Assembly: GCA_030650395.1 (NCBI GenBank)
Contig: JAUSDY010000014.1
Location: forward strand, 1 to 50,013
DNA: 50,013 nt
Reading direction: 5' to 3'
Source: Acidobacteriota bacterium
GTDB taxonomy: Bacteria; Acidobacteriota; Vicinamibacteria; Vicinamibacterales; UBA2999
The notes under the pieces are model-generated. The model had not been told where the DNA came from. It made no database searches and saw nothing but the letters and a program-made list of their open reading frames with translations. Made by a program: the position numbers and the translations under genes. Below, one piece after another: positions 21,970 through 49,815 of this stretch; the first letter of the stretch is position 1; every line of letters begins with the position of its first letter.

Positions 21970-21989
21970 GCGGTAGTATACCTGCCGGT
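21970..21989 (-). promoter_or_regulatory. Promoter element, first copy of a 20-nt repeat, with TATACT 6 nt before the start codon
   Basis: The plus strand reads GCGGTAGTATACCTGCCGGT, identical to 35009-35028. On the minus strand it is an extended -10 (GGTATACT) followed by ACCGCG and the ATG at 21968. Transcription starting at the normal distance would give a leaderless mRNA. The shared flank CCGGCAGG could be an activator or extended promoter element replacing a -35. Confidence 0.7.
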
Positions 21990-28844: not shown

Positions 28845-30917
28845 ATGAGTGTTGCGACTCGAGGCCGGTACGCCAGTCTGCTGATCTGGACGGCCTACGT
28901 CATCGTTCCCACTGATGCCGGCGGACTGATTCACGGCGTTCCACTCGGCCCGATTGATGCGTTCGCGCTGCTGATCATCGCGTGGCTGGCGGCATATGGC
29001 GGGCGGTTGTCCGGCGCGGCGATCGTCGCCACGATGCTGGGGGTCAGCCTCGTGGCATCGGCGTCGATCCCCGGCACGGGCGGCTTTCGGGCGCGATATT
29101 TCGCCAATGCCGATGCGACCGGGCCGCATGAACGCAGCACCGAGTACCCGGATAGTCCATTTACCCGGCTGGACGATCGTCTCGACTTCGCGCCTGGGGG
29201 CCCGGAGTTCCCTCTGGCCTTCTTCAACGACAACGGGCCGTTCAATTTCTACAGGGCGGGCGAGCCGCGTCGACGCCAGCTCGAATTCGCCGCGAGGTGG
29301 AGCGGCTCTTGGTGGGTCGCCGAGGGAACGCATTCCCTGTACGTGGACGCGCCCCAGTCGGCCGCGCAAGTGTTCGTCGACGGCGCCACCGTGGTGTCGG
29401 TCTCGCCCGAGGCGGGAGCTGGCAGCGCTGACATTTCGCTCGCCGGTGGCTGGCATCGTCTTGACGTGACGTTTTCGTCTCCTTACGGGGCACCGCGGCG
29501 GTTTTCGGCGGGAGAGCTGCAGGGCGGCCAACGGAGACCGTTCGATTCGACGTCCGTCGTGACGCGGCAGGTCCGCGGTTGGCAGATGACGGTGACGCGC
29601 GTGCTGCGGGTGGTCAAGACCGGCGTGGACGCCGGTGCGCTGGCATGGCTGGCGTGGTTGTGCGCCGTGAGCATCCGGCAGCGAATCGGCGCTCTGCGAC
29701 AGGATGCCCCCGCACCGGCACGGCGAGCGCAGGCGCTTTCCCTTCTGGTGATCGTCGCAGCGGTGGAGGCGTGGGTGTTCGCCTGGCCTTGGTCCCGTCA
29801 GGTGATGCTCCTGAACGGCGGCGATGACCCGATGACGTACGAGGGGTACTCGCGCGACATTCTGCTCAACGGGCTACTGATGAACGGCAACCTGCCGCTC
29901 GGACAAGGTGAGCCGTTTTACTACCAGGCCTTCTATCCGTACTTTCTCGCTGCGGTCCACGGGGTCTTCGGCGAGGGCATGTTCGGGGTCATGCTCGTGC
30001 AGCGCCTGCTCGTCGTATTCGTAATCTGGAGGCTCGTGGAGATGGCTGCCGAACTCGGTGGGAACGAGGTTTGGCCTGCGGCGCTCGGCTGCGCTACCTT
30101 CTTTGCCTGCTGGAAATTCTGGCCAATCGCCGCCGACCTGTTGAACGAGTCGTTGTACGTGCCGTTGCTGGTGGCGTGGACGGCGTCCCTCATACGAGCG
30201 TGTCGAGCGCCCACAACGGCACGGGCTATCGGAGCGGGCTTGTTGGGTGGATTCACGGCCATCACGAGGTCCACCGCCTTGCTCGCCTGGGTGGCCGTGT
30301 TTCCAGCGTGCTGGGCGGCGTGGAAGCGCGCCGCCAATCGTCGCGTGCTCCTGGGCGCCCCGGTCCTGTGCTCCTTCGGAATTTTTTCCCTGATCACCGT
30401 ACGAAACTGGATCGTGGCCGGTCAATTCGCGCCGACGTCCACCGAACTGGGCGTTACCCTGCTGGGCGGCAATGAGCTGCCCGAGGGAGTGACCATTGAC
30501 CTCAGCGCTCGAGGTGCGCTCTACGAGCGGCTGGGACTCCACTCATTCACTGCCCAGGTCATCGAGTACGCGATCACGGCGCCAGGATCATTTGCGCTCA
30601 ATCTTGGGCGCAAGGCCCTGTTCGTACTCGGATTCTTTGAAGCGTACGCGCCCGGCTGGGGGTATTCGCCTGTGTACATCGCGGTCTGGGTCACGGCGGT
30701 TGCGGGCTTGGTGTTCGCGATTCGAACCGGCCAGACGCCTGCCATTCCTCTGATAGTGCCGGCGCTGATCGCGATCACTCAATTCGCGGCGCTGGTGGTC
30801 GTGTACCCCAAGGGCGAGCGATTGATCCTGCCGGTATACATCCTCTTAGTGCCGTATTCCTCGATAGCCGTCTACCGCATAACACGAGCGATGGTGCAGA
30901 ATTCGAGCCACTCGTGA
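28845..30917 (+). CDS. Membrane glycosyltransferase with a PA14-like extracytoplasmic domain
   Basis: The 690-residue protein has three N-terminal membrane segments, then a soluble region of about 170 residues (FRARYFANADATGPHERST to RRFSAGELQGG). This has the PA14 look: an opening strand, GTHSLYVDAPQSAAQVFVDG and GWHRLDVTFSSPYG. From about 290 a GT-C-like membrane domain follows, with NGGDDPMTYEGYSRDILLNG carrying the acidic pair after a membrane segment, and FYYQAFYPYFLAAVHGVFGE. It probably glycosylates a periplasmic acceptor, with the PA14 part binding glycan. It opens a four-gene operon; its stop overlaps the next GTG as GTGA. Confidence 0.8.
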   Translation: MSVATRGRYASLLIWTAYVIVPTDAGGLIHGVPLGPIDAFALLIIAWLAAYGGRLSGAAIVATMLGVSLVASASIPGTGGFRARYFANADATGPHERSTEYPDSPFTRLDDRLDFAPGGPEFPLAFFNDNGPFNFYRAGEPRRRQLEFAARWSGSWWVAEGTHSLYVDAPQSAAQVFVDGATVVSVSPEAGAGSADISLAGGWHRLDVTFSSPYGAPRRFSAGELQGGQRRPFDSTSVVTRQVRGWQMTVTRVLRVVKTGVDAGALAWLAWLCAVSIRQRIGALRQDAPAPARRAQALSLLVIVAAVEAWVFAWPWSRQVMLLNGGDDPMTYEGYSRDILLNGLLMNGNLPLGQGEPFYYQAFYPYFLAAVHGVFGEGMFGVMLVQRLLVVFVIWRLVEMAAELGGNEVWPAALGCATFFACWKFWPIAADLLNESLYVPLLVAWTASLIRACRAPTTARAIGAGLLGGFTAITRSTALLAWVAVFPACWAAWKRAANRRVLLGAPVLCSFGIFSLITVRNWIVAGQFAPTSTELGVTLLGGNELPEGVTIDLSARGALYERLGLHSFTAQVIEYAITAPGSFALNLGRKALFVLGFFEAYAPGWGYSPVYIAVWVTAVAGLVFAIRTGQTPAIPLIVPALIAITQFAALVVVYPKGERLILPVYILLVPYSSIAVYRITRAMVQNSSHS

Positions 30918-32311
30918 GCAAACTTCTGTTGAGCACGGGCGCCGGACTCACGCTGGGCCTTCTCTACACGGCATCTCCGCTCTCGATGTGGGTCCTCGCC
31001 GCGGCGGCCGCGCTGCTGGTGCTCGCAGGCCGCGGCTTGTCCCAATCCGAGCGCCGCCTGCTCGTGACCATTCTCGCAACCGGTCTTGCCGCGCGGCTCT
31101 TCGTGATCGCCGGACTCGTCGTGCTCGGCCTGCCGTCGCACAGCGACCTGAGCGTGGGCGCGCTGGCTGGCGACGATGCGTACTACCTTGGACGGGCGCT
31201 TCGCGCGCGCGACATCATCCTGGGATTCACCGAAGGCAAGTACGACTACTTCGTGGTCACCGACGAGTATGGGAGGACGAGCTACCTGGGCTTCTTGACG
31301 GTCATCCAGGTGATCTTCGGCCCCACACCTTTCAGCATGCGGTTACTGAACGCGCTCTTCTTCGTGACGGGCTCGACGCTCCTGTTTCGCATGGCACGAC
31401 AGGCCTTCGGGCCTGCCCCGGCGTTTGCCGGTCTCGTCGTGCTGCTATTTCTGCCGTCGCTTCTCTTCTCGTCGATTTCGATCCTGAAAGAGTCTCTGTA
31501 TTTTCTGTGCTCGGCCCTCCTGCTGGTCTGCTGTGTCCGCCTGTTCAAGGCCCGGAACGTGGTCAGGGCGGGCATGCTGATCGTTATCGCCGGCGCCAGC
31601 CTCTGGTTGCTGGACGATCTGCGCCGCGGCGCGGTGATGCTTGCGGGCTCAGGCATTGCCGTCGGACTGGCCCTTCGCTTTGTTGCCGCGACCCGTCGGC
31701 GCCTGGCCGCGGCGGCAACAGCCGTGCTGCTCGCGGCAGTTGTCGGGCTCTCGCAGCCGCCGATGCGCGCGCGTGTCCTGGATGGAGTGGTGTCCGCCGC
31801 CAAGATGCACGGGGGACACGTCTTTACCGTGGGCCACGCCTACAAGCTGCTCGACGGGGATTTCTACATGAATCCCGCGGCGCCCAGTTCGTGGCCATTG
31901 ACTCTGACGGAGCCACAGGCCGCGCGATTCCTGATCCGCGCCGCCGTCAGTTTTCTGGTGACACCGTTGCCATGGGAGATGAGGTCATTCGGCGAACTCG
32001 CGTACTTACCGGAGCACCTCTTGTGGTATCTGCTGATCGCGGCGCTGCCGGCGGGCCTCGTGGCTGGATGGAAACGCGACCCGCTCGTCACCGCGCTCAT
32101 CATCGGCTACGTCGTGCCCACCGCGGGCGCGTTGGCGTTGACCAATGGTAATGTCGGAACGCTGCTCCGGCTTCGCGGGCTCGTGACGCCCTACCTGATC
32201 TGGGTCGGCGTGCTCGGCGTGCTGGCCATGGTGGAAACGGTGCTCGCCGCGCGTCGCCGTGCATCGGAGAGCGGTAAGAACGAGTGGATGATGGAAAGGC
32301 CGACGGCATGA
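30914..32311 (+). CDS. Polytopic membrane protein, GT39/GT83-like
   Basis: The 465-residue protein starts at GTG 30914 inside a GTGA overlap. About eleven hydrophobic segments are seen. The first extracytoplasmic loop has LAGDDAYYLGRALRARDIIL, with the DD pair typical of GT-C enzymes, and YDYFVVTDEYGRTSYLGFL follows. A later helix has SSISILKESLYFL, and the C-terminus is short and cytoplasmic. Enzymes of this type take sugar from polyprenyl phosphate. The substrate is unknown. The ATGA overlap with the next gene indicates tight coupling. Confidence 0.75.
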   Translation: MSKLLLSTGAGLTLGLLYTASPLSMWVLAAAAALLVLAGRGLSQSERRLLVTILATGLAARLFVIAGLVVLGLPSHSDLSVGALAGDDAYYLGRALRARDIILGFTEGKYDYFVVTDEYGRTSYLGFLTVIQVIFGPTPFSMRLLNALFFVTGSTLLFRMARQAFGPAPAFAGLVVLLFLPSLLFSSISILKESLYFLCSALLLVCCVRLFKARNVVRAGMLIVIAGASLWLLDDLRRGAVMLAGSGIAVGLALRFVAATRRRLAAAATAVLLAAVVGLSQPPMRARVLDGVVSAAKMHGGHVFTVGHAYKLLDGDFYMNPAAPSSWPLTLTEPQAARFLIRAAVSFLVTPLPWEMRSFGELAYLPEHLLWYLLIAALPAGLVAGWKRDPLVTALIIGYVVPTAGALALTNGNVGTLLRLRGLVTPYLIWVGVLGVLAMVETVLAARRRASESGKNEWMMERPTA

Positions 32312-33375
32312 CCATCGTAGACAACCGCGGGCGGCTGTTTGGCCGCATCAACCTCGTCGATGCGACCGTCCTCATCTTTTTGATCGTCTTGATTCCCGTG
32401 GCGTATGGCACGTTCCTGCTCTTTCGGCCCGCGTCCCCGCGCATCGACTCGGTCTCGCTGACCGATCTCTCCAAGGAGGAGTTTCGGGTCGCCAACGGCG
32501 CCCTGCTCAGCGCCAAGCTGAAGGTCAAGGGCACTGGCTTTAACCCGCTCTTGCGGGCCTCGATCGGGAACACGCCAGCGATGGGCTTCGTGTTCGAGAA
32601 TCCGAACTCGGCCGATGTGCTCGTGGGCGAAGTGCCGATGGGCACGCACGATCTAGTCCTGTTCGATGGCGTGCAGGAGGTCGCAAGGGCGGTTGGCGCG
32701 GTGACGATACACGACACCGTTGGGACCATCGTCCGCACGGTGGGCTGGTTCACAGGTCTCGACTCCGCGGCGGTCAAGACACTTCAGGTGGGCTTTGCCT
32801 CTCCCAAAGAGACCCGTGCCGCCTTTGAAATCGTGGCGATCGGGCCCCCGCAGCCGGCCCGTTCGCGAATCCAGTTCGGCAACTCGGCCGTGGACATGCC
32901 CCTCGAGGGCTACCTCGAACGAGAAGCGGTCCTCACCGTCCGCTGCGACTCGCCGGGTCCAGCGTGCAGTGTGGGCGGAGTGCGGCTGCGCGAGCTCTCG
33001 CCGATCGCCGTCACACTGGCGGGAGGCCTGGGTTACGAGATCCAGGAAATCCTGCCGATGAGCGATCCCGCCCGAGGTCGGGTGCACGTGCGGTTCACGG
33101 GTCCCCATGTGGCGATGATGAAGGCCGGTGATCGCGACGCCTTCCTGGACCCGCGCGCAGCGCGTCTGACGGAAGTCGCCGCGCGAGACGGGACCGCGGT
33201 CACCGCGACCGTGGAAATGGGGCTGGACAATTCTCGGGAAGGCTGGCGCTATCGAGGGCAGGTGTTACGGCCGGGCGCGTTATTCCACATCACGACCGAT
33301 CGCTATGAAGCCAATGGCCTCGTGGTTAGTATCGATGTAGCCGAGGCGTCGGCCCAATCGGGCAAGACACCATGA
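32308..33375 (+). CDS. DUF4330-like single-pass protein with beta-rich domains
   Basis: The start at ATG 32308 lies in the ATGA overlap. The 355-residue product begins with TIVDNRGRLFGRINLVDATV and a membrane segment (LIFLIVLIPVAYGTFLLF), the layout of DUF4330 proteins. After the membrane come IPT/TIG-like sequence (IDSVSLTDLSKEEF to ASIGNTPAMGF) and further beta-rich regions with repeated VxVxFxGPH-type strands. No catalytic motif is seen. It is probably an envelope-anchored partner of the glycosyltransferases encoded before it, for example in anchoring or exporting the product. Confidence 0.7.
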   Translation: MTIVDNRGRLFGRINLVDATVLIFLIVLIPVAYGTFLLFRPASPRIDSVSLTDLSKEEFRVANGALLSAKLKVKGTGFNPLLRASIGNTPAMGFVFENPNSADVLVGEVPMGTHDLVLFDGVQEVARAVGAVTIHDTVGTIVRTVGWFTGLDSAAVKTLQVGFASPKETRAAFEIVAIGPPQPARSRIQFGNSAVDMPLEGYLEREAVLTVRCDSPGPACSVGGVRLRELSPIAVTLAGGLGYEIQEILPMSDPARGRVHVRFTGPHVAMMKAGDRDAFLDPRAARLTEVAARDGTAVTATVEMGLDNSREGWRYRGQVLRPGALFHITTDRYEANGLVVSIDVAEASAQSGKTP

Positions 33376-33776
33376 GCGATCACGAGTTTCGCGCGGTGCG
33401 AGAGACGGCCACCGAGAGCCGGCTGTGGCTGGCCATGTCTGCCTCGGCGCGGCACTGGTCGGCGGCATGGACCGACGCGACCGCGACGCGTCTTGTGAGG
33501 CGAGTCGCCATGTCGACCGCCGATTGGAGCGTCGCTGATCGCGTGCGTTACGGCGCCGTGGCGGTCGTGTGGGCCGCCCTTGGACACCTCGGTTGTCTCG
33601 CGTTGTTCCCGGCCTACGTCGCGCCGGGACTTCCGAAGGCGCCTATCGTAGCCATTGCGCTCGTAGCGGCGGTGGTCGCCGCGGCGCCGGAACCGTTCGT
33701 AAAGGCTTGGAGCGAATCAAGACTCGGCCGTGTCGGCCGGCGGTTTACCGCGCAGGTTCAGAACAACGACGCGTAA
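33372..33776 (+). CDS. Small membrane protein, 134 aa, unknown function
   Basis: The ATG at 33372 overlaps the upstream TGA (ATGA). After a polar, Ala/Thr/Arg-rich N-terminal 55 residues come two hydrophobic stretches (YGAVAVVWAALGHLGCLALF and IVAIALVAAVVAA) and a basic tail. I do not recognise it. It is the last gene of the plus-strand operon and its 3' end overlaps the convergent gene at 33758 by 19 bp. Confidence 0.6.
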   Translation: MSDHEFRAVRETATESRLWLAMSASARHWSAAWTDATATRLVRRVAMSTADWSVADRVRYGAVAVVWAALGHLGCLALFPAYVAPGLPKAPIVAIALVAAVVAAAPEPFVKAWSESRLGRVGRRFTAQVQNNDA

Positions 33777-35008
33777 CTCAACGTCGCGTCCTGGAGCCAG
33801 ACGACCCATCGCGACACCCACTTGCCAATGGGTACGTTGGTCTGCGACGACGCCAGGCGATCGTTGTTGAGGGTATTCGTATCGAGTAGGACGACCCGGT
33901 TTGGATCGAGATACACACCGGAGGGCGGCGCGGGGCTCTCGAACTCGAAGTCCCGCGACGGCGGCCGCCCATCCCACCGTGTGTCGACCTGCTGCCCATC
34001 GGCGAACTCTACCCGTAGTTCGATCGCATCCCCCGAGTAGTAGCTGCCACGCGGCGCCCGCGACGCGCCGCTGAAGACGCCGTTTCCGAGCCGCGCGGCT
34101 GTCACCTTGGTAACCACACAGGGCGCGCTCGAGCAAGGCGCGATCGAGATGGAGGCGACGGCATAGTCGACGGGGCGGGTGGCATCAAGCGCGGCCTCGA
34201 ACAGCCATGACAAGTCCTGCCCAGCAGCCGTGCCGATCCCCTCGAGCAGTTGGGCGAGGGACATTGAACCTGAGGGCGCGCGCCGCGCCGACTCGAACAG
34301 GGCACCTTGCAGGGCGGGCCATCCGATGTACCGCTCGAGGCTTCCGAACGCGAGCGCCACCCTGATGGCAGCCAGGTCGAGCGATGCGGGAAGCCGGCGC
34401 GCGGAGACGGGCCAGTCGCGCATCGCGCCTCCGCGCAGAAACTCGGGACGTCCCAATCCGGAGGTCCAACGGCTCATCCGCAACAACGGGAATTCCCACG
34501 GCACTGCTCCGCCAAAAAAGCGAACGGCGTCGGCGCTGTGACCAGGGTTGAGAAACGCGAAATCGAATAACCGCTCGACCACGCGGCTCTGCAGGTACCA
34601 CGCGATGCCGTTCACCACTGGCAGCGCTTCGCGATTCTCCGCCGGCCCAGACCACCACAATTGAGCCAGGCCATACGACACCTGTGACTCGATGTCCATC
34701 GTCGATGGGACCGGCCGCCAAGGTATATCGACGATCATGCTCCGCGAGTCGGAAAGCGTCTGACGATCGGCGATGACGATGTGTCGATCGGGGACCGGAC
34801 CGAGCCACTCCGACAAACGCGCGAGGGATTCGTTCGCGGCGTTGTCGATGCGACGCCGATGCTGTTCGTGTTGAGGGCTGAGCCGGATCTCCACGATCGA
34901 TTCGGCCCGCGGGTCCTGAGCTCGAAGGGATGTGGGATCGCCGGCGGAGGCAGCCACGATCGCCACGGCGAACCACAGTGCGCGACCGCCGCGGGCCCTC
35001 CGACGCAT
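33758..35008 (-). CDS. Secreted protein resembling an inactive M1-type peptidase (cassette copy 1)
   Basis: The start ATG at 35008 gives a signal peptide (MRRRARGGRALWFAVAIVA, cleavage probably near SLRAQ) and a 416-residue product. The middle resembles the gluzincin domain of M1 aminopeptidases, but where HExxH(x18)E is expected the protein has SQVSYGLAQLWWSG and then VVNGIAWYLQSRVVERL, with no zinc ligands. Its paralog at 37640-38953 shares the layout LSEWxGxxP, LERYIGWPALQ, GQDLSWLFEAALDATRPVDY, a DTRWDGRxP strand and a C-terminal VWLQDATLSYASL. I infer a non-catalytic periplasmic binding or scaffold protein. It shares an 18-bp divergent promoter with the propeller gene at 35027. Confidence 0.72.
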   Translation of the reverse strand: MRRRARGGRALWFAVAIVAASAGDPTSLRAQDPRAESIVEIRLSPQHEQHRRRIDNAANESLARLSEWLGPVPDRHIVIADRQTLSDSRSMIVDIPWRPVPSTMDIESQVSYGLAQLWWSGPAENREALPVVNGIAWYLQSRVVERLFDFAFLNPGHSADAVRFFGGAVPWEFPLLRMSRWTSGLGRPEFLRGGAMRDWPVSARRLPASLDLAAIRVALAFGSLERYIGWPALQGALFESARRAPSGSMSLAQLLEGIGTAAGQDLSWLFEAALDATRPVDYAVASISIAPCSSAPCVVTKVTAARLGNGVFSGASRAPRGSYYSGDAIELRVEFADGQQVDTRWDGRPPSRDFEFESPAPPSGVYLDPNRVVLLDTNTLNNDRLASSQTNVPIGKWVSRWVVWLQDATLSYASLF

Positions 35009-35028
35009 GCGGTAGTATACCTGCCGGT
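35009..35028. promoter_or_regulatory. Bidirectional promoter element, second copy of the 20-nt repeat
   Basis: GCGGTAGTATACCTGCCGGT fills the gap between two divergent start codons. On the minus strand TATACT (35019-35014) is 5 nt before the ATG at 35008. On the plus strand TATACC (35016-35021) is 5 nt before the GTG at 35027. The two -10 boxes overlap on the same TATA core, so both genes could be transcribed leaderless from one symmetric element. Confidence 0.7.
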
Positions 35029-36691
35029 GTTCCGCTCTCCTTTCGGCGTCACGCGTCGAGCGTTCTTGAAAGCGGCGGCCGGGGGTATGGCGGTGCCTGC
35101 GCTCGCGCGCGCCCAAACGTCCGCGCATCGAGAGACCCTCTACAACGGCATCACGCTCTCTTCGCCGTGGCCTCCCGTGCGCGGGCAGTTGTCGGACACG
35201 CCTCAACGGCCACCCTACCTGGCGTCGCCTCCCGAGGTCATCAACATCGACGTCGGCCGCCAGTTGTTCGTGGATGATTTCCTCGTCGAGGAATCGGCGC
35301 TTCACCGGACGTTTCACCAGGCGACCTATCACCCGGACAACCCGTTGCTCTCTCCGGAGCGCGACTGGGAGCTGCGCGATCCTCACGCCGCGCTGACAGG
35401 CACACCCCCGAGCCCATCGGCAATGGTGTTTAGCGACGGCGTGTTCTTCGATCCGGCTGAACGCGTTTTCAAGATGTGGTACATGTCCGGCTACCAACAG
35501 GACACCGCCCTCGCGCTCTCGGCCGACGGCATCACGTGGGAGCGTCCGAACCTAGACGTCGTTCGCGGCACGAACATCGTTTCCCGGCGACAGCGGGATT
35601 CGAACACGGTCTGGCTGGATCTCGACACGCGCGATGCGAACGCGCGCTACAAGATGGCGGGCTACGACCTGGGGCTCAAGGCGCTCCGCCTGCACGTGTC
35701 GCGTGACGGCGTTCACTGGCGGGAGGTGGGGGTCAGCGGCCCGTGCGGCGACCGCAGCACGTTTTTCTACAACCCGTTCAGGAAGGTCTGGGTCTTCAGT
35801 CTGCGACGGGACGAGAACGGCATGAACCGGTCACGGCGGTATGTCGAGTCCCGCGACTTCGCGTGGACGAGGTGGACCGCGAGCGATCCCGTGTTATGGA
35901 CGGGCGCCGACACCGCCGACCTCGCGCGGCCGGAGATGGCGACGGTTCCGAGGCAGCTCTACAACCTCGACGCCGTGGCGTACGAGAGCGTCCTGCTCGG
36001 CCTGTTCAGCATCTACAGAGGCGAGCGGCCCGACCGCGAAAAACCGATCGATCTGTGCGTGGCCTTCAGCCGCGATGGGTTCCACTGGTCGCGCCTCTCC
36101 CGCGAGCCGTTCATCCCCGTGTCGGAACGCCAGGGCGACTGGAACTGGGCCAACGTGCAATCGGCGGGTGGCGGGTGCGTGCTCGTCGGCGATCGTCTCC
36201 ACTTTTACGTGAGCGGCCGTCAGGGTATTCCCGGCACGGCCCTGCCCGGTATCTGCAGCACGGGCCTTGCCACGCTGAGACGCGACGGCTTTGCATCGAT
36301 GAGCGACACGTGGCCTTCCGGTACCCCGCGCCAGATTGGCAATCGCGCCGGTTTGACGACACGGCCGATCAAATTTTCAGGCCGTTACCTGTTCGTGAAT
36401 GCCGATGTTGATGGAGAGCTGAAGGTGGACGTGATCGATAAGAACGGGCGGGCGATCGAGGCCTTCTCGGCTGACCGGTGCATCCCGGTAACGGGCCACG
36501 CCACCCGCCTTCCCGTGCAGTGGAAGGGTGGCGTGACGTTAGAGGAGCTGTCCGGGCAGGAGGTCCGTTTCCGCTTCAACCTGACGCGCGCGCGGCTGTA
36601 CTCGTTCTGGGTGAGCCCGTCGCCGAGGGGTGAGAGCCGGGGATATGTCGCGGCCGGAGGGCCCGCCTACCGAAGCCACTACGACGGCTGA
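35027..36691 (+). CDS. Secreted five-bladed-propeller, GH32/GH43-like protein (cassette copy 1)
   Basis: GTG 35027 is the only plausible start close to the Tat-like signal peptide VTRRAFLKAAAGGMAVPALA (twin Arg then FLK). The mature part of about 520 residues has repeated propeller blades: NIDVGRQLFVDDFLVEE, AMVFSDGVFFDPAERVFKMW, LALSADGITWERPNLD, TVWLDLDTRDANARYKM, LHVSRDGVHWREVG, VAFSRDGFHWSRL, WNWANVQSAGGGCVLVGD and STGLATLRRDGFASM. A C-terminal beta-sandwich with LYSFWVSPSPRGESRGYV follows. The S/DGxxW blade pattern and acidic residues fit glycoside hydrolase family 32/43 relatives, but I cannot assign the catalytic acids. It may process or bind glycan outside the membrane. Folded export by Tat suggests a bound metal or cofactor. 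Confidence 0.78.
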   Translation: MFRSPFGVTRRAFLKAAAGGMAVPALARAQTSAHRETLYNGITLSSPWPPVRGQLSDTPQRPPYLASPPEVINIDVGRQLFVDDFLVEESALHRTFHQATYHPDNPLLSPERDWELRDPHAALTGTPPSPSAMVFSDGVFFDPAERVFKMWYMSGYQQDTALALSADGITWERPNLDVVRGTNIVSRRQRDSNTVWLDLDTRDANARYKMAGYDLGLKALRLHVSRDGVHWREVGVSGPCGDRSTFFYNPFRKVWVFSLRRDENGMNRSRRYVESRDFAWTRWTASDPVLWTGADTADLARPEMATVPRQLYNLDAVAYESVLLGLFSIYRGERPDREKPIDLCVAFSRDGFHWSRLSREPFIPVSERQGDWNWANVQSAGGGCVLVGDRLHFYVSGRQGIPGTALPGICSTGLATLRRDGFASMSDTWPSGTPRQIGNRAGLTTRPIKFSGRYLFVNADVDGELKVDVIDKNGRAIEAFSADRCIPVTGHATRLPVQWKGGVTLEELSGQEVRFRFNLTRARLYSFWVSPSPRGESRGYVAAGGPAYRSHYDG

Positions 36692-37623
36692 CCGCGAAGG
36701 GACTTGAACAGCAGCAGTTCGGACGCGGCGAACGTCAGACGGATCACGAGCCTTGCCACGATGTAGGCTTGGCCGATCACCACACCCCTCCAGCCGCCAA
36801 CCCGCGAGCCGCCGTAGATCTCCCCGGTCCCGTACAACACCAGAAGACCGACGAACAGCATGCCCGTCATCAGGTACAGGGCCAGGACGGTCCAGAGATG
36901 GCGCCGAATGAAGCCGACACCCGTGGCGAATGCGTCACGGATCGCAAGCGGTCCCGTGACGACCAGACCCACCCGCGTGTAGTCCGCGGCAAGGCTTACC
37001 AGCACCAGCAGAGACCCGAATACGAGATACAAGCCCACGCGAACGAAGAACGCCGTGCGCTCGCTGCCGGTGTTCGAGGCCAGCGCGTCGTAGATGGGAC
37101 CAAACAGCGCGGCGTGAACGGTGAAGTAGAGCGCGAGCTGGACAAGAGCGGCCGTGGCGCTGACAAGCACAAAACGCGGAGCGTGCGCGAAGGCCGCCGA
37201 GAAAAACTCGCGGACTGAAAGGCTTCGGCCGATGTTGAACCGGTGGAGGATGGCGCCCCAGAGCCATGCCCAGATCAGTCCCGTCAGGAGCACGGGGCCG
37301 GCAAGCGCCCGCGGGCGGCGGCTCCCGTCGAGCATCGCGCTCAGGTTGTCGAGAGGGGCGGCGAAGCCAATCACGGTTGGCGTAAATGTCGCGGCCAGGC
37401 CGCCCGCGTGCGCGCGGAACTCGGCCCACCAATCCGCGTCGATTTCGCCAGAGCCGAGCGCGATCGGCGGCTGGTTGGCAAGCCCGTCCTGCAGCCTCGC
37501 GCCCAGAACAACGCCGAACGGGATTGCCGCGGCCAGCGTCACGGCCACGACCGCCGCCACCAGAATCGGCGCGCGCAGCACCGCCCCAAGGCCGCCGCCG
37601 AGCGATCGAACCGCGCGCATCAT
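36679..37623 (-). CDS. Integral membrane protein, unknown function (314 aa)
   Basis: Six to eight hydrophobic stretches are seen, starting GAVLRAPILVAAVVAVTLAA, with a loop carrying ADWWAEFRAHAGGLAATF and a C-terminal amphipathic region AYIVARLVIRLTFAASELLL. It resembles uncharacterised membrane proteins of the DUF4013/YihY-like style but not closely. It is 16 bp downstream of the M1-like gene at 37640, so it is probably co-transcribed with copy 2 of the cassette. A purine-rich GAGAGGAACGAG stands before the ATG. The 3' end overlaps the convergent propeller gene by 13 bp. Confidence 0.72.
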   Translation of the reverse strand: MMRAVRSLGGGLGAVLRAPILVAAVVAVTLAAAIPFGVVLGARLQDGLANQPPIALGSGEIDADWWAEFRAHAGGLAATFTPTVIGFAAPLDNLSAMLDGSRRPRALAGPVLLTGLIWAWLWGAILHRFNIGRSLSVREFFSAAFAHAPRFVLVSATAALVQLALYFTVHAALFGPIYDALASNTGSERTAFFVRVGLYLVFGSLLVLVSLAADYTRVGLVVTGPLAIRDAFATGVGFIRRHLWTVLALYLMTGMLFVGLLVLYGTGEIYGGSRVGGWRGVVIGQAYIVARLVIRLTFAASELLLFKSLRGQPS

Positions 37624-37639
37624 TCGCGACTCGTTCCTC

Positions 37640-38953
37640 TCATACCAGGGCGGAATAGGTCAACACGAGATCCTGAAGCCACATGAGCCAACTGAGGGTC
37701 TCACGGACGCCGTTCACGTGAACGCCGCGGCGCAGGGTGCGCCTGTTGTTGGACGTGTCGGCGTCGAGCAGGAGCATCGCGTCCGGATCCACGCTGGCCA
37801 GGATTGCGGGAGATGCACTGAGGTAATCCAGATCGACAGCAGGGTCGCGGCCGTCCCACCACTCGCGCACGTCCGTGCCGTCTTCGAACCGGATCGACAC
37901 CTCCAGCGATCGCGCCCGCGACGCCTCACGCGGCTCGACCGTGCCTGCGAACACGGCGTCTCCGAATCGCCTGAGCTTCACCTCGGTCCGGTATCGGGAC
38001 CCCTCCGGCACGCTGCTGAAATGCTCGATACCGTAGTCAAAGCGGGCGGGAAACCGAAACGCCTCGGCGAAGAACCACGACAGGTCGCGCCCTCTCTGCT
38101 CGCTCAGCACCGTCGCGAGACCGCCGGGCGTGCCCGTTCCTGCTCGAAACCGTTCGCGATATGCCTCGAGGCCCTGTTGCATCGCCGGCCAGCCGATGTA
38201 GCGCTCCAGCGAAACGAGCGCCGTGGCCGTCCGCTCCGCTTCGTTGCCGTCGCGTCCGACCCACCGCCGCCAAGGCGCATCGACTGGACGCTGCAGTTCA
38301 TCGAAGCGCCGAAGGCTCGGTCGGGCGTCGGGAGCCGCCGGCGACAAGGGCAGCGAGCGGATCGCAAACGGCATGAAGCCGCCGAAATAGCGGGCCGACC
38401 AGTAGTGGCGGCCCTTGAGCTCCGCATCGATGGCGCGCGCGCCCGAATATTGGACCAGGCCTTCTTCAAACCAACCGCGGGCGGGATCAGCAGGGATCAC
38501 GCCGAACCAGTACTGACGTGCGATCGCGCCGATCAGCGTTCGCTCGACCGACGCGTCCCGTTCGAGGGACATCCACCGGGTACTGGTCACGACTGTGCCA
38601 GGGTACGACGCACCGACCCACGGCGAATGCCAGGGCGCGTCGATGACGGTGAGTTGCGCAAAAGGAAAGGCGCCGTACCATTCGCTGAGCCGCCTGAGCG
38701 CGGCGCGCGTGCTATCGACGAGGCGTTGAGCCTGATCTTCGGGACCGGGCTTGAGCAGGAAGCGGAGTTCGACGGGCGGAATGGCCGGAATGACTTCGCG
38801 CTTGTAGAACTCCTGCCGCAGGGTCAACCCCATCGCGAGGGCCGCCACTGCTGAAGGGACGACCTCTGGGGCTTGCCGCGCGGCCACGGCCACGGATGCC
38901 AGCGCCACCACGATCATCCGCACCAGCGCGCGCTGGACTCGTCTGCTCCACAC
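37640..38953 (-). CDS. Secreted protein resembling an inactive M1-type peptidase (cassette copy 2)
   Basis: The 437-residue product is paralogous to the gene at 33758-35008. GTG 38953 gives a signal peptide (basic RRVQRALVR, hydrophobic MIVVALASVAVAA) and lies 6 nt after TATACA. This copy is closer to M1 peptidases: LSEWYGAFPFAQLTVIDAPW, then IGAIARQYWFGVIPADPARG and WFEEGLVQYSGARAI. M1 enzymes have HExxHQWFG and a W(L/F)NEGxA Glu; here the second Glu is kept but both zinc His are gone (AIARQYWFG). This copy therefore shows how the family lost catalysis. The C-terminal region ends MWLQDLVLTYSALV, matching copy 1. Confidence 0.78.
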   Translation of the reverse strand: MWSRRVQRALVRMIVVALASVAVAARQAPEVVPSAVAALAMGLTLRQEFYKREVIPAIPPVELRFLLKPGPEDQAQRLVDSTRAALRRLSEWYGAFPFAQLTVIDAPWHSPWVGASYPGTVVTSTRWMSLERDASVERTLIGAIARQYWFGVIPADPARGWFEEGLVQYSGARAIDAELKGRHYWSARYFGGFMPFAIRSLPLSPAAPDARPSLRRFDELQRPVDAPWRRWVGRDGNEAERTATALVSLERYIGWPAMQQGLEAYRERFRAGTGTPGGLATVLSEQRGRDLSWFFAEAFRFPARFDYGIEHFSSVPEGSRYRTEVKLRRFGDAVFAGTVEPREASRARSLEVSIRFEDGTDVREWWDGRDPAVDLDYLSASPAILASVDPDAMLLLDADTSNNRRTLRRGVHVNGVRETLSWLMWLQDLVLTYSALV

Positions 38954-38959
38954 CGCGCG

Positions 38960-38965
38960 TGTATA
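38960..38965 (-). promoter_or_regulatory. -10 box TATACA, 6 nt before the M1-like GTG start
   Basis: The minus strand reads TATACA-CGCGCG-GTG. The position mirrors that of TATACT at cassette copy 1 (5 nt). TACTAT three bases upstream is an alternative hexamer with 9-nt spacing. Confidence 0.55.
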
Positions 38966-39010
38966 GTACAACAGCGGGCGGGCCGCCCCGCCCCCTATCC
39001 CTGCCACCTC

Positions 39011-40690
39011 TTGATAACCAGACGAACGTTCATTCGCGGCGCCATGTCGGGCGCCATCTTGTGGCCGCCCGGCTCGTGGGAGTTCGCGCGCGCCGCGTTT
39101 GCGCCCGAGGTCCTGTACAACGGCATCACGCTGGGCTCGCCTTGGCCGCCGCGGCTCAAGTATCCCGACGAGCATCCAATCCTGCCGGCGTACCTGGCCG
39201 ATCCGCCGGCCGTGATTCCGATCGACGTGGGGCGCCAGCTGTTCGTGGACGACTTCCTGATCGAAGACACGACGCTCGCCCGCACGTTTCATCGCGCGGT
39301 CTACCACCCCGCAAATCCGATTCTCCGGCCGGAGAAGCCCTGGGAGCTCCGTGACGAGGTCGCGGAGCGAACGAAGAACCCGACCAATCCCGCGGCCATG
39401 GTGTTCAGCGATGGTGTGTTCTTCGATCCCCGCGAGCGTGTGTTCAAGATGTGGTACATGGCCGGTTACGGCATGTTCACGTGCCTGGCCACATCGTCCG
39501 ATGGTGTGTTCTGGCGGCGTCCCGAGTTCGACGTCGTTCCCGGCACCAACATCGTGAGCCAGGCCGTGCGCGACTCAAGCACCGTGTGGCTTGACCTCCA
39601 CGAGCCCGATCCGAAACGCCGGTACAAGATGTCGGTGTGGTACGACCACGCCCTCGTGCTCTCGGTGTCGCCAGACGGCATTCATTGGACGGAGATCGGC
39701 ACCACGGGCCGCACCGGGGATCGCTCCACGTTCTTCCACAACCCGTTTCGCAACGTCTGGGTCTACAGCCTTCGCGCCAACCAGTTCGAGTCGTCTATCA
39801 GCGGGCGGTACCGGAAATACTGGGAGTCTGCTGAATTCAGCGCCTCGCCGACCTGGAGGCCGCAGGATCCGGCCGCGTGGATCAAGGCGGACTCGCGCGA
39901 TTTCGCCAGGCCCGATGTCGCCACGCGTCCTGAGCTTTATAACCTTGATTGCGTGGCGTACGAGAGCGTGATGCTCGGCCTGTTCTCGGTCTGGCGCGGG
40001 GAAACCGGCGCCCGCGAAAAGGTGAACGAGATCACCCTTGGCTTCAGCCGTGACGGCTTTCACTGGCATCGACCGGATCGCGCCTCGTTCATTCCCGTGT
40101 CTGAAGAGTCGGGCAGCTGGAATTGGGCGAACGTCCAGTCAGCGGGTGGGTGTTGCCTGGTCGTCGGCGACGCGCTGTATTTCTACGTGAGCGGCCGCCA
40201 GGGACGTCCCGGGACCGAAGCGCCCGGGGTCTGCAGCACCGGCCTCGCCACACTGAGACGCGACGGCTTCGCATCCATGGACTGGCGGCCGGATCAGGCG
40301 CGCGTGATCAAGCAAGGCAAGACAGCGTCGTCGACCGGCATGCTCACGACGCGGCCCATTCGCTTTTCGGGACAGCACCTGTTCGTCAACGCCGATCTTG
40401 GCGGTGGCGATCTGCGCGTCGAGGTGCTCGACCGTTCCGGACGCACGCTTGTTCCATTCACTCGCGATGCATGCGCGCCCGTGACCGGCAATGGCACCCG
40501 CCTTCCGGTGTCGTGGGCGAAAGGATCGATCGGCGACCTCGCGGGGCAGGAGGTGCGCCTGCGTTTCTCGCTCACCCACGGCCGCGTGTACGCGTTCTGG
40601 GTCAGTCCGTCAGCCGCGGGAGAAAGCCGCGGATACCCGGCCGGCGGCGGTCCTGAGTTCCAGGGGCCTGTGGACGGCGGGACGCGCTGA
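39011..40690 (+). CDS. Secreted five-bladed-propeller, GH32/GH43-like protein (cassette copy 2)
   Basis: TTG 39011 is taken as start because it directly precedes a Tat-like ITRRTFIRGAMSGAILW; the frame upstream is antisense to the M1-like gene. The 559-residue product is colinear with the copy at 35027: PIDVGRQLFVDDFLIEDTTL, AMVFSDGVFFDPRERVFKMW, WLDLHEPDPKRRYKM, TFFHNPFRNVWVYSLRA, LGFSRDGFHWHRPD, WNWANVQSAGGCCLVVGD, STGLATLRRDGFASM and YAFWVSPSAAGESRGYP. One difference is an extra segment around AERTKNPTNPAAM. It is probably a glycan-active or glycan-binding exoprotein. Its TGA overlaps the ATG of the next glycosyltransferase (TGATG), which ties the propeller to a membrane glycosyltransferase. 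Confidence 0.76.
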   Translation: MITRRTFIRGAMSGAILWPPGSWEFARAAFAPEVLYNGITLGSPWPPRLKYPDEHPILPAYLADPPAVIPIDVGRQLFVDDFLIEDTTLARTFHRAVYHPANPILRPEKPWELRDEVAERTKNPTNPAAMVFSDGVFFDPRERVFKMWYMAGYGMFTCLATSSDGVFWRRPEFDVVPGTNIVSQAVRDSSTVWLDLHEPDPKRRYKMSVWYDHALVLSVSPDGIHWTEIGTTGRTGDRSTFFHNPFRNVWVYSLRANQFESSISGRYRKYWESAEFSASPTWRPQDPAAWIKADSRDFARPDVATRPELYNLDCVAYESVMLGLFSVWRGETGAREKVNEITLGFSRDGFHWHRPDRASFIPVSEESGSWNWANVQSAGGCCLVVGDALYFYVSGRQGRPGTEAPGVCSTGLATLRRDGFASMDWRPDQARVIKQGKTASSTGMLTTRPIRFSGQHLFVNADLGGGDLRVEVLDRSGRTLVPFTRDACAPVTGNGTRLPVSWAKGSIGDLAGQEVRLRFSLTHGRVYAFWVSPSAAGESRGYPAGGGPEFQGPVDGGTR

Positions 40691-42675
40691 TGCGCCGGGG
40701 CCTGGAGCGGCTGCTCGACTCGACGCGCACGGTCTACCTCGCGTCGGCCGTGTCGCTGGCGCTTGGCCTCTTCTTCATCTTCGTGTGGGCGCCACACCCG
40801 TGGAGTTGGCAGGGCATCGACGCGTACCACGAACTTGCGCGGGCGATAACGCGAGGCGACGGCTTCCCGACGACAGACGTGCCGTGGGGTTACGCGTACT
40901 TCGCGGCCGCTTTCTATTACGTGTTCGGTGAGCATGTGTGGATCCCGCTCGTGGCGCAGGTGATCCTCAACGCGACCGTCCCGGTGATGCTCTATCACCT
41001 GGTCCGGCCGTTGTCGACACAGCGGACGGCGGTCCTGGCGGCGGCCATTGTCGGCGTGTTCTCGTTCAACACCGTATACGCGTCCACGCAAGTGTCCGAC
41101 ACGATCTGCACGGTGATGTTCCTCGCCGCCCTGCTCTGCTTTGCGCGCGGCTATCGCACGGGCCGCCTCGGCCCATTCGTGCTGAGCGGGCTGCTGTTGG
41201 GGATCGTTCCGCAGTTCCGTCCCAACATGGTGATCTTCCCGGCCCTGATGATCCTCGTGTACCTCATCCTTCGCCCCCGCACGTGGCGCAAGGTGGCCCA
41301 CATGGCGGTGTTCGCCGCATTGGTGGCATCGGTCCAGACGCCGTGGATCGTCCGCAACTACCAGCTCACGGGCCTGTTTCTTCCCACGAGCACGCACGGC
41401 GGCGTTCAACTGTGGTACGGCACGCTCCAGGTCGGGCCTTACCTCGAGAGCCGCGCCCACAATCCGCGCTTCAACTTCGAATCGGCCGCCTTCGACTATA
41501 CGAGCCTCGCGGCGCGGCCCATCCTCATCAGCGCCGAGTATCGGGACTGCTCAGATCGGTCGGGCGGGTTGGCTGACCTGGTGTACTGGACCGGCCGCGA
41601 CCCGCGGCATCGCCGCGTCAAGCCTCTCTGGCGCGAAGGCGGGCGGATCGGCTTCGAGCTGCCGCCGCAGCCGATACCAACAACGCTCTACTACTACTTC
41701 GAGCAGTCCTGGCCCGCCGCGAATGGCGAACCCGCCGCGACCTTCGTGACCCCGTTCGAGGGTGAAGCGAATCCGTTCGTATCGTTTGTCTCCGACGATC
41801 ACCTCGGCGATCTCGATCGGCGCGGCGATCTGCTCGACATCTTCGACGTGACGCGGCTCCTCAGCCACATGGCGTGGGGCGATCCGGTGCAGCACGCCGA
41901 ACGGCTGGACTTCAATCACGATGGCCGTCTCGACGACCAGGACCTCGAACAGGCCGTGACCCTGCTGTTACCCGAGGCGCCTCCGCGTCTTGACGGTTCC
42001 CGGTTGACCCGTTTCGAGCGAAGCGAGACGGCAGCGACCCTGCACCTCGTAGACGGGTCGTACGTGTCGGTACCTCGCTCCTTCTCTGGACGCCAGACCG
42101 ACCTCGACCTCAACGGCACGCTCGCCGGCGCGCTGGTGTCGAAGCGGCGGACGTTCACGTCGATTGCCTATCCCCATCGGCGGCCCGGCCCTGGCGAGTG
42201 CAGCTTCGCCGAAAACGTCAAGCTGAACGACACTTTCTACCGGAGCGAGCCCCACATGATGCAGCGCTACATGGCGTTGGCGCTCGACAACATCTCGCGA
42301 GATCCCGTCGGGTTTGCCAAGGCGTCAGCCTACCGGATGTTGCGCTTGTTCATCATTCGAGGGACGGACGACCCCTCCACGACCCAACAGTTCCGGTGGA
42401 GCCAGGTGGCGTACGGCGCCGGGCAGCTGCTGTCGACGGTGTACTTGCTGGTTTTTCTTTCCGGCGCGGTGATCGCCTGGCGGCAGCGCTCCGCCCTCGT
42501 CTTGTTCCTTCTGCCGATTGTGTACGTGCCGCTGACGATCTGCTTCGTGCTCACGAACATGCGCTACACCGTCACGGTGCAGCCGCTCATGTTCGTGTTC
42601 GTGGCGGTGGCGGGGATTGCGGTGCTGAGGCTGGACTCGTCGTCAGACGAGCGGCGCGGTGTGGGGGCGAACTAA
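40690..42675 (+). CDS. Membrane glycosyltransferase (GT39-like) with an inserted EF-hand/dockerin-like domain
   Basis: The 661-residue protein has an N-terminal membrane segment followed by WQGIDAYHELARAITRGDGF, the acidic first-loop motif of GT-C enzymes. About nine membrane segments are seen up to residue 230. A soluble insert of about 300 residues follows, then three C-terminal membrane segments from about 585. The insert contains LLDIFDVTRLLSHMAWG and LDFNHDGRLDDQDLEQAV, which match dockerin/EF-hand calcium loops (D-x-N-x-D-G-x-L-x-x-x-D). A Ca2+-dependent docking site on a periplasmic loop of a glycosyltransferase is unusual. Its ATG shares a base with the stop of the propeller gene (TGATG). 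Confidence 0.8.
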   Translation: MRRGLERLLDSTRTVYLASAVSLALGLFFIFVWAPHPWSWQGIDAYHELARAITRGDGFPTTDVPWGYAYFAAAFYYVFGEHVWIPLVAQVILNATVPVMLYHLVRPLSTQRTAVLAAAIVGVFSFNTVYASTQVSDTICTVMFLAALLCFARGYRTGRLGPFVLSGLLLGIVPQFRPNMVIFPALMILVYLILRPRTWRKVAHMAVFAALVASVQTPWIVRNYQLTGLFLPTSTHGGVQLWYGTLQVGPYLESRAHNPRFNFESAAFDYTSLAARPILISAEYRDCSDRSGGLADLVYWTGRDPRHRRVKPLWREGGRIGFELPPQPIPTTLYYYFEQSWPAANGEPAATFVTPFEGEANPFVSFVSDDHLGDLDRRGDLLDIFDVTRLLSHMAWGDPVQHAERLDFNHDGRLDDQDLEQAVTLLLPEAPPRLDGSRLTRFERSETAATLHLVDGSYVSVPRSFSGRQTDLDLNGTLAGALVSKRRTFTSIAYPHRRPGPGECSFAENVKLNDTFYRSEPHMMQRYMALALDNISRDPVGFAKASAYRMLRLFIIRGTDDPSTTQQFRWSQVAYGAGQLLSTVYLLVFLSGAVIAWRQRSALVLFLLPIVYVPLTICFVLTNMRYTVTVQPLMFVFVAVAGIAVLRLDSSSDERRGVGAN

Positions 42676-43284: not shown

Positions 43285-46200
43285 TCACCGCGCTGACCGC
43301 GGAACCGGCGTCAGTAGAAACGCGTGAGTTTCACCGGCAACAATTCCGGAGCCTATAATCTGACCGCGATCGTTAATCGCAGTGGCTGACAGCAGCCTCC
43401 AGCCAGCATCGGCGGGAATCAGCGCGTTCAGATCAAAACTTTCACCTCCGCTGTACAGCGTCGGGAACGGGAGAGTGTCCGCGCTTGATGTATCCAACCC
43501 AAGACGCCCGGCGGCATTGTTGATCGCGATGAGGGCGCCGAGCGGCGCCGGCAATCTCGTCACCACACCTCCGCTCCCGAGAACGTTTCCCGTCATGGTC
43601 TGACCAGCGTTATTGATTCGGCTGAGACCGATCGCGATCTGACCGGCGTCGTTGATCTGCGGACGGAGCGCGTCGTTGCCCAGGGGGCCGAGGTCCGTCA
43701 TGACACCGCCGTCAGAGACGAAGGCGTGAAGAGTCTGGGCCATGTCCGTCGAAACGCCGACGACTTGCCCCCAGGCATTCATGCCCCAGGCGGAACTGTA
43801 CCCACCACCGAGATCTCCGAGGTCGGTGGAGACACCGTCGCTGTATACGAATGCGTGAATTCCGTCGCTGAAGGCCACTTGTCCGGCATCGTTCACGAGA
43901 ACCGGCGGATTCAAAACATCTGTACAGCAGGGTCCGAGGACAGTGGCGATACCACCCCCAGACAGCAACGCCTGGCCCTGGTCAGCGCCCGCAATGTGCC
44001 CCGCGCTGTTGATCGAATAGCGACCACTGCCAAATCCAAGGTCGGTCATCACGCCGTCTCTGTACAGGAACGTTCCCGTCCCATCTTTCCTCCCGACCAC
44101 GTCACCGGCCGCGTTGATTGCGTGGGGGCCGTAGCCCGCTCGGGGATCTTCCTGCACACCCAAATCAGTGATCGCGAAGATGCCTTCTTCGACGAGTTGA
44201 ACGACGGAGCTGCCGACGGGCTGCCCGTCGTGGCTTGCCGAGATGACGTGCGGGCTGTCGGCCAGCGTCAGCATCGCGCCTCCGAACGTCGCGGCGCACA
44301 CCGCGTTCCGGCACACAATCGGGGCCGTCCCGAGCAGGGTCGAGCCGTCCAAGAAATCGACGCTGCCGCTTGCGATGGATTCGCCGACCGACACGGTGGC
44401 CGTGAAGATGGGCGGCTGGGTCGTGAGCGCGGGATTGTGAGACGTGGTCAGCGCCAAGACCTGAACGGTGTCGCTGGTCGCGAGGAGAGTGTACGAATCG
44501 TTCACGAACCACCGGACGTTACACGTCCCGGTTTTCGGTGGCGCGGCGAAGGTCAGCGTCGCTCCCGTTAAGCCTACAGCCGGCGGCGTCCTGGACCCGT
44601 TTAAATACTTCCAGTCGATGAACGAGACGTGCGAAACGGCCGCTGGACAAAACAGTCCCACCCAGTCGCGCGCATGGCCGGGCCCGTTACCGACCGTGAC
44701 CGTCAGTGTTCCGCCCGGATTAACCGTGAGGGGGGCCACCGCCAGCGTGGGGCCCGTGACCGTCACCGTCGCGCTCGTGGCGAGTTTCGTGAATCCGTTG
44801 TTGGCAAACAACCGGGCGTTACACGTGGTCCCGCCCGCTATCGGCGCGGTGAACGTGACCGCTGCGCCGCTCAGGCCGGTCGTTGGCGGCGTTTTCGCGT
44901 TGCTCAGATACTTCCAGTCGGTGTAGCCCCCGTCCGCGCCCGTCGCCGGACAGTACAGGCCCACCCAGTCGAAGACGTTCCCCGGTCCATTCGCCACCGT
45001 GAAGGTCATCGTCCCGCCCGCTGCGACCGTCGTCGACGACACGGTCACCGTCGGCCCCGGGGCGGGCAGCCCGACCGTCAGCGTCAGGCTGTTGGACGGC
45101 CCGCCACCCGGCGCCGGGTTCAGCACCGTAATCGGGGGGTTCGCGCCCGGCGTCGCGACGTCGGCCGACGGGATCGCGGCGGTCACCCGCGTGGCCGACA
45201 CGAACGTCGTCGTCCGCGCCGCGCCGTTTACCTGCACGACCGACGTGGACACGAAGTTCGTCCCGGTCACCGTCAGCGTGAACGCCACACTCCCCGCCGG
45301 CACCGTGCCCGGAGTCAACGTCGTGAGCGTCGGCACCGGGTTGATGACGGTGACCGTCGCGCTCGTGGCGAGTTTCGTGAACCCATTGTTAGCAAACAAC
45401 CGCGCGTCACACGTGGTCCCGCCCGCCGTCGGCGCGGTGAACGTGACCACTGCGCCGGTCAGGCCGGTCGCTGGCGGCGTTCTCGCGTTGCTCAGATACT
45501 TCCAGTCGGTGAAGCCACCGTCCGCGCCCGTCGCCGGACAGTACAGGCCCACCCAGTCGAAGACGTTCCCCGGTCCATTCGCCACCGTGAAGGTCATCGT
45601 TCCGCCCGTGGCAACGATCGTACTGTTCACCGCGAGCAAAGGACAGGTCGACGTCGTCAACGTGACGTCCGCTCCGTAGTTGGTGCCGCCCGAGTTGGTG
45701 CCCTTCGCCCGGAAGTGATACAGCTGGCCGCATGACAGCGTCGGCGACGCAGAGATCCCTTGAGCGTTCGACCCGGTCAACGTCTGTGCCGACACCGAAC
45801 TCCCATAGGCGGTCGTCGTCCCATAATCGAAGCTCGTAGTGGTCGACGCGCCGTTCGGGTTCACCGTGCCGTTCAGTGTGGCCCCATCCCGCCCGATGCC
45901 GCTTGCCGCACCCGTCGTCACCGTCGGCGGGACCGCGGCGCCCGTTCCGGAGACCGTGAAAGTATTGGTCCCACTGGTCTGGTCTGCGTTGACCGTCGCC
46001 GTCCCGCTATAGCTGGTCGCGGCCGTTGGGGCAAACGTCACCGTGACCGCTTGCGTGCCGCCAGGCGGAATCACGCCAGACCAGTTACCGCCAAACCCCG
46101 TCGGATAGCTGATGCTGCTGACCGTGAGAGAGGCGTTTCCTGTGCTGTAGATCAGCAGCGTGGCGGACGCAGATGAGCCTAAGGGAACGCTACCCCAGAC

Positions 46201-49725: not shown

Positions 49726-49815
49726 ACGCACCTCATGGAATGTCGACGCTGGGCGAAAAGTACGCCAGATAACGGACTATTCCATTCGGCCAGACAGGGA
49801 ATCATCGGCGCATCT

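Follow-up and report, generated by a model that had tools for sequence, protein, structure and literature searches.

This report concerns a duplicated gene cassette in a 50,013-nucleotide stretch of DNA (positions 1 to 50,013 of contig JAUSDY010000014.1, assembly GCA_030650395.1; hereafter, the window) from a member of the order Vicinamibacterales within the Acidobacteriota. Each cassette consists of a gene for a relative of the M1 metallopeptidases (M1-like) that lies head to head with a gene for a putatively exported propeller protein, and, just as a first-pass annotation of this DNA had described, the pair occurs twice with a membrane-protein gene in between. M1-like a (33758-35011, minus strand) faces propeller a (35027-36691, plus strand), their start codons being separated by 15 bases, and M1-like b (37640-38953, minus strand) faces propeller b (39011-40690, plus strand). 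Both M1-like proteins have a signal-like N-terminus, and both propeller proteins combine a twin-arginine motif, a propeller and a C-terminal beta domain, propeller a being recognized by its homology to propeller b. The start codons are those that we chose, and three of the four pair genes begin with GTG or TTG. The gene in between (36679-37623, minus strand) directly follows M1-like b and encodes an integral membrane protein with six hydrophobic segments, for which Pfam and NCBIfam scans gave no family. This arrangement is more than a chance one, because it recurs in other genomes of the same genus and in a second family of the order (here, f5).

By Pfam alone the M1-like assignment is weak, with one protein matching at E 0.013 and the other not at all, but it is clear by homology, as M1-like b is 32 % identical over 380 residues to a full-length M1 peptidase encoded on another contig (C96) of the same genome, a protein of 686 amino acids from its start codon that exceeds the Pfam PF01433 cut-off (48.1 vs 27.7 bits). 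Judged by their sequences, the cassette M1-likes are truncated relatives of that full-length peptidase. Their zinc site has been lost, a conclusion that we hold with near certainty. Among 13 cassette M1-likes (eight from the window's genus and five from f5), none keeps HExxH or either of its His residues, and none shows the combination expected of an active M1 enzyme, i.e., HExxH and a Glu approximately 18 residues further on; as a control, HExxH with the distant Glu is present in 36 of 38 non-cassette M1 rows, a set without fragmentary and the weakest matches. The zinc and catalytic positions of M1-like a read Y, G, Q and N, and in M1-like b HExxH reads GAIAR, with the Glu ligand position retained. 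The GxMEN exopeptidase motif is also absent from the 13 rows, the region being missing from the A copy of genome G007 and a lone Glu of the G446 protein falling in the GxMEN column. Having both M1 homology and lost zinc ligands, these proteins qualify as M1 pseudopeptidases, and the lost ligands rule out an active peptidase. The first-pass annotation had not foreseen the loss of the zinc site.

What stands at the old zinc site is patterned. Arg replaces the second His in 11 of the 13 cassette M1-likes, and the third-ligand site of those 11 is Asp or Glu in ten and Asn in G440; the two proteins that lack the Arg (M1-like a of the window and the A copy of G007) have Asn at the third-ligand position. 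From this pattern, Arg and the acid could form a salt bridge in place of the zinc, although these rows are not independent observations, because they share descent. Additionally, a WxxWL motif, seen in the tails of both M1-likes of the window, is found in all 11 cassette M1-likes with a readable C-terminus.

The propeller proteins carry an RR motif (TRRAFLK and TRRTFIR in the window, and present in all five f5 proteins), which marks a twin-arginine signal and suggests export by the twin-arginine translocation (Tat) pathway; the Pfam TAT_signal match of propeller a is weak (E 0.97). The propellers matched no Pfam glycosidase family above cut-off and no NCBIfam family, and GH32N matches appeared in two of 22 propeller relatives, the best at E 0.0027 and below the curated cut-off. 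When a profile of these 22 relatives was compared with solved structures, it matched mannoside phosphorylases (E 6e-8 and 7e-7), the GalNAc deacetylase of F. plautii, 6n1a (E 4.6e-5), and a sucrose-6-phosphate hydrolase (7e-4). The phosphorylases belong to what we take to be family GH130. An AlphaFold2 model of propeller b, of moderate confidence (pLDDT 64.5), matched 6n1a with Z 20.5 over 288 residues, mannoside phosphorylases with Z 17-19 and GH43 enzymes with Z 16-18. The protein is, as modelled, a five-bladed propeller and is a distant relative of mannoside phosphorylases, GH43 and GH32. Six polar residues, Asp133, Arg186, Asp187, Asp236, Tyr316 and Glu317 (numbering starts at position 39014), are invariant in the ten rows of the genus, where covered, in a Gramella relative and in all five f5 proteins, and they vary in more distant rows; their invariance suggests an active enzyme. 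In a sample of the phylum, 32 of 396 genomes had a propeller match at E 1e-8 or better. A contig from the Opitutaceae (L024) encodes two propeller relatives, one of which lies at the contig edge and shows 51 % identity over 240 residues, and also holds a TonB-plug gene.

Within the order, the propeller profile matched 14 of 162 genomes, with E values no higher than 3e-200 in 11 of them. These close propellers belong to six genomes of the window's genus (G000, G001, G003, G004, G006 and G007) and five of f5, each of the latter from a different genus, so that a genus-restricted cassette was ruled out by the order-wide search. The close propeller genes number 15, of which the genus contributes ten and f5 five. 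A 180-base fragment at the start of contig C95 of G003 is left out of this count, as C95 and the end of C35 share an overlap of 127 exact bases and we take the fragment to be the end of a gene already counted. As the G001 gene is cut by a contig edge before its upstream region, 14 readable genes remain, and an M1-like gene faces the propeller in 12 of them (7/9 in the genus and 5/5 in f5). An M1-like gene is present in ten of the 11 close-propeller genomes, the eleventh being the one that ends at the contig edge. The three members of the genus that lack the propeller (G002, G005 and G008) gave no cassette-type M1-like match; their M1 matches are full-length, save one in G005 at a contig edge beside the membrane-protein gene. 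Short open frames of other M1 matches (G431, G033, G501, G449, G467 and G446 C189) were left out. The close propellers and the short M1-likes occur together rather than mostly apart, and we are highly confident that their pairing is conserved.

The two families are also inherited as matched pairs, a view supported by their gene trees. In the propeller trees, groups A and B, to which the two cassettes of the window belong, each reach 100/100, and in those of the M1-likes 100/99; within f5 the split of G450 and G438 from G448 and G440 is starred for both proteins. The f5 proteins form one group at 100/100 in the M1 tree, from which the partly readable G446 was left out, and at 74/42 in the propeller tree. 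G004, which has a single cassette, groups with A in three M1 trees (100/96, 99/96 and 96/94) and is unplaced in the propeller trees. Within A, the M1 trees favour the window with G003 (99/60 and 87/87) and the propeller trees favour G007 with G003 (85/88 and 80/75), none of these being starred. The order of A, B, f5 and the full-length M1s is unsettled, several branches are long, some rows differ in composition, and a first propeller tree, which used far outgroups, was poorly resolved. Nonetheless, wherever both trees resolve a split with good support they agree, and they disagree only where support is weak. An origin of the cassette M1-likes by recent duplication of the full-length M1 of the genus is unsupported, as these proteins fall outside that clade, albeit on long branches; a fully supported branch separates M1-like a and the other cassette M1-likes from the full-length M1s. 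Although this concordance bears out the proposal that both members diverged in parallel, insofar as inheritance is concerned, the rates do not, as the two propellers are 58-60 % identical and the two M1-likes 28-31 % and have therefore diverged unequally.

The membrane protein between the pairs belongs to a wider association. Forty-eight matches to it were found in 41 of 60 genomes (its own genome included), and 40 of the 48 are directly preceded, within 600 bases and on the same strand, by an M1-type match. Cassette copies make up five of these matches, four of them paired, and outside the cassettes 36 of 43 are paired; a tree of the membrane proteins separates the cassette copies from the others at 99/99. 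On C96, a gene for a membrane protein of this type (35 % identical) likewise comes after the full-length M1 gene, and, as another example of the order-wide pair, L032:7345-10442 holds a full-length M1 peptidase gene and then one for a multi-pass membrane protein. No family name was found for the membrane protein of the order-wide pair in Pfam or NCBIfam. The only two of the 38 control rows without HExxH...E come from two further members of the window's genus, G002, where the full-length M1 (68 % identical to the C96 protein) reads QGAGR, and G006, where it (62 % identical) reads QGAGH, with the third-ligand Glu changed to Lys. Because G002 and G006 have lost HExxH...E even in that M1, the order-wide pair, the putative source of the cassette unit, may have a non-proteolytic role. 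The site-lost M1 of G006 is located on contig C41 (L080). In G002, the M1 gene (C51, L082:8960-11020) lies apart from the membrane-protein gene (C43, L083:1215-2204), the latter still adjoining the same 333-residue Rossmann-type gene that neighbours the M1/membrane-protein pair of the window's genome.

The genes around the cassettes support a surface-glycan neighbourhood. To the right, a PMT_2-type GT-C glycosyltransferase gene (40690-42675, plus strand; Pfam PMT_2 E 1.7e-15) has a start codon that overlaps the stop codon of propeller b. The first-pass annotation had placed membrane glycosyltransferases on both sides, which holds on the right; on the left, the immediate neighbour (32284-33375, plus strand) encodes a DUF4330 protein with one hydrophobic segment (Pfam DUF4330 E 1.2e-7), and behind it lies the gene (30914-32311, plus strand) for a GT-C-like membrane glycosyltransferase, named from hydropathy (nine hydrophobic segments) and a PMT_2 match below cut-off (E 2.1e-4). 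DUF4330 homologues recur in the cassette loci of G003, G004, G438, G440 and G446. Homologues of the right-hand GT-C gene (at least 44 % identity) were found in 14 of the 162 genomes, i.e., in all 11 with a close propeller vs three of the 151 others (G008, G013 and G451; Fisher p 1e-14, a statistic that ignores shared ancestry). The left-hand gene (at least 49 % identity) recurs in six of the 11, the window included, and in none of the 151 others, weaker matches being commoner (23/162 in all). The wider window encodes an AT3-SGNH acyltransferase, an AlgX/SGNH-type protein, GDP-mannose 4,6-dehydratase, UDP-glucose/GDP-mannose dehydrogenase and further glycosyltransferase-like proteins, some of these matches being below the Pfam cut-off. 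Neither SusC/SusD nor a glycosidase family was found among the window genes scanned, and other loci were scanned in part. Of the earlier proposal of an envelope glycan-processing module, the glycan context stands, by GT-C co-occurrence and by the sugar-nucleotide, acyltransferase and glycosyltransferase neighbours, and the 'processing' is conjectural. Further right, a 2148-residue repetitive, secreted-looking open reading frame (43285-49731, minus strand) has near-identical repeats and a metallopeptidase-like motif, HEIGHNMGLHHD.

Combining these data, we tentatively propose that the cassette encodes a two-protein periplasmic unit, within a surface-glycan locus, of a pseudopeptidase partner and a glycan-editing propeller, a reading that we regard as quite possible. 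The propeller, probably an active enzyme of the five-bladed mannoside-phosphorylase/GH43/GH32 superfamily, would trim or remodel a glycan of the envelope. Its M1-like neighbour descends from an M1 peptidase, having lost the N-terminal M1 domain and zinc site but kept the C-terminal domain and conserved aromatic tail. It would most likely serve, without catalysis of its own, to hold or position the propeller close to the GT-C glycosyltransferases, which are expected to assemble the glycan at the periplasmic face of the membrane. A tandem duplication in the window's genus would then have given two specialized pairs, A and B, of which the B copy also carries the membrane-protein partner. That M1 pseudopeptidases whose zinc site has become an Arg-acid pair control a Tat-exported glycan-editing enzyme and couple it to GT-C transferases is a more speculative extension, and we hold it to be doubtful.

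Several observations weigh against the two-protein unit. Two A pairs are broken, as the M1-like gene of G003 lies approximately 6.6 kb off beyond other genes and a different membrane protein faces the propeller in G006, a genome 80 % complete in which M1-like a was not found; nor was a cassette M1-like found in G001, where the contig ends inside the propeller gene. The A protein of G007 is shortened to 302 residues, the M1-like of G446 is only partly readable, and at the second position of HExxH the B protein of G003 retains Glu. For M1-like b, an AlphaFold2 model built on four rows was unusable (pLDDT 44.4), and so an M1 fold is presumed from sequence. In a hydropathy scan, none of the tails of M1-like a, M1-like b and the C96 M1 was called as a membrane span, and since the M1-like tail is below the threshold for one, our confidence in this reading is lowered. 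The GT-C homologue is directly downstream of the propeller in only three of the 11 genomes (the window, G006 and G007), within approximately 6 kb in four (f5), and farther away or on another contig in four. No match to the membrane protein was found in the five f5 cassette loci, and no M1 or membrane-protein match in any of the ten loci with distant propellers beyond the order. Finally, divergent neighbours that share a promoter need not interact.

This last point leads to the possibility that a symmetric promoter couples transcription only, the pseudopeptidase and propeller acting separately in the same glycan locus. The gap of each cassette holds a -10-like box, i.e., the symmetric TAGTATA at 35013-35019, between the starts of M1-like a and propeller a, and TATAGTA at 38962-38968, between M1-like b and propeller b. 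One or other of these occurs in the gap in seven of nine cases in the genus, and TAGAAT or TACAAT, from a permissive pattern list, in all five f5 cases. The two 7-mers together occur three times in the window, two of these in cassette gaps (approximately 0.15 expected of each), and in G006 the A box is retained even though a different gene has taken the place of the M1-like one. These boxes fit a shared symmetric promoter, and the available portions of PMC12825309 and PMC10268837 describe bidirectional promoters as widespread in prokaryotes. However, a promoter alone would require neither the co-occurrence seen in ten of the 11 close-propeller genomes, together with the absence of the M1-like gene from the three propeller-less members of the genus, nor the agreement of the trees, and we consider independent action a possibility on the unlikely side. 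The third copy in the window, TAGTATA at 21974-21980, lies just upstream of the start of a minus-strand open reading frame (20586-21968), a placement that resembles that of the cassette boxes.

The M1-like genes might instead be decaying pseudogenes that hitchhike with a useful propeller. They do evolve faster than the propellers, as between the window and G007 the b copies have nonsynonymous (dN) and synonymous (dS) rates of 0.49 and 1.32 for the M1-like and 0.23 and 1.15 for the propeller, both dS values being near saturation, and the A copies are shortened, displaced or not found in G007, G003 and G006, respectively. Yet, simple decay is contradicted by the retention of reading frames in two families, a dN lower than dS, the conserved WxxWL tail and the Arg/acid pattern, and both copies are full-length in the window's genome, which leaves this explanation highly improbable. 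The propeller might also be a catabolic enzyme for scavenged glycans, its biosynthetic neighbours being incidental. In a survey of neighbourhoods that left out G515 and G493, the Gramella relative (35 % identical) was found beside SusC/SusD and two alpha-L-fucosidases, and others were found near GH3 (G155), outer-membrane barrels (G093 and G358), a GH99-type gene (G117) or, some 5 kb off, a sulfatase (G321). Conversely, distant relatives in G106 and G357 have neighbours without an evident glycan role, the window genes scanned include no SusC/SusD or glycosidase family, and the GT-C homologue accompanies the propeller in 11 of 11 genomes; a catabolic role is, in our judgement, rather unlikely.

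If borne out, an Arg-acid pseudopeptidase that couples a propeller to GT-C glycosyltransferases would represent an envelope glycan assembly unit of a new kind. More broadly, a bacterial M1 pseudopeptidase co-inherited with a glycosidase-like propeller allows a clean test of the way in which a dead peptidase fold is turned into a partner protein, and the locus points to both an undescribed step of surface-glycan assembly in the Acidobacteriota and an order-wide pair of genes for an M1 protein and a membrane protein without a family name. Literature searches, mostly at the level of titles, returned no description of an M1-like/propeller pair or of a bacterial M1 pseudopeptidase.

Among known systems, SusC/SusD polysaccharide-utilization loci include the one that houses the Gramella propeller relative, whereas the window cassette has genes for glycosyltransferases and acyltransferases around it, and those scanned include no SusC/SusD. 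Mannoside phosphorylases, GH43, GH32 and 6n1a resemble the propeller in fold (Z 16-20) and give weak but significant profile matches; the window propeller differs from them in being only 8-15 % identical, in its extra C-terminal beta domain and in matching no Pfam family above cut-off. The M1 metallopeptidases (PF01433) are homologous to the cassette M1-likes over the catalytic-domain region, but the latter are without the N-terminal domain, GxMEN and HExxH. According to the portions of PMC11266112 available, metallopeptidase pseudoenzymes are mainly eukaryotic, and M1-type relatives such as Tma108 are discussed there as inactive or non-canonical. The same source tabulates FtsHi5, of family M41, with WAAGR, in which Arg takes the place of the second His, just as it does in 11 of the 13 cassette M1-likes. 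Tma108, a nascent-chain-associated yeast protein, is printed there with HExxH, and, unlike it, the cassette M1-likes are bacterial, start with a signal-like N-terminus and are encoded in pairs with a propeller.

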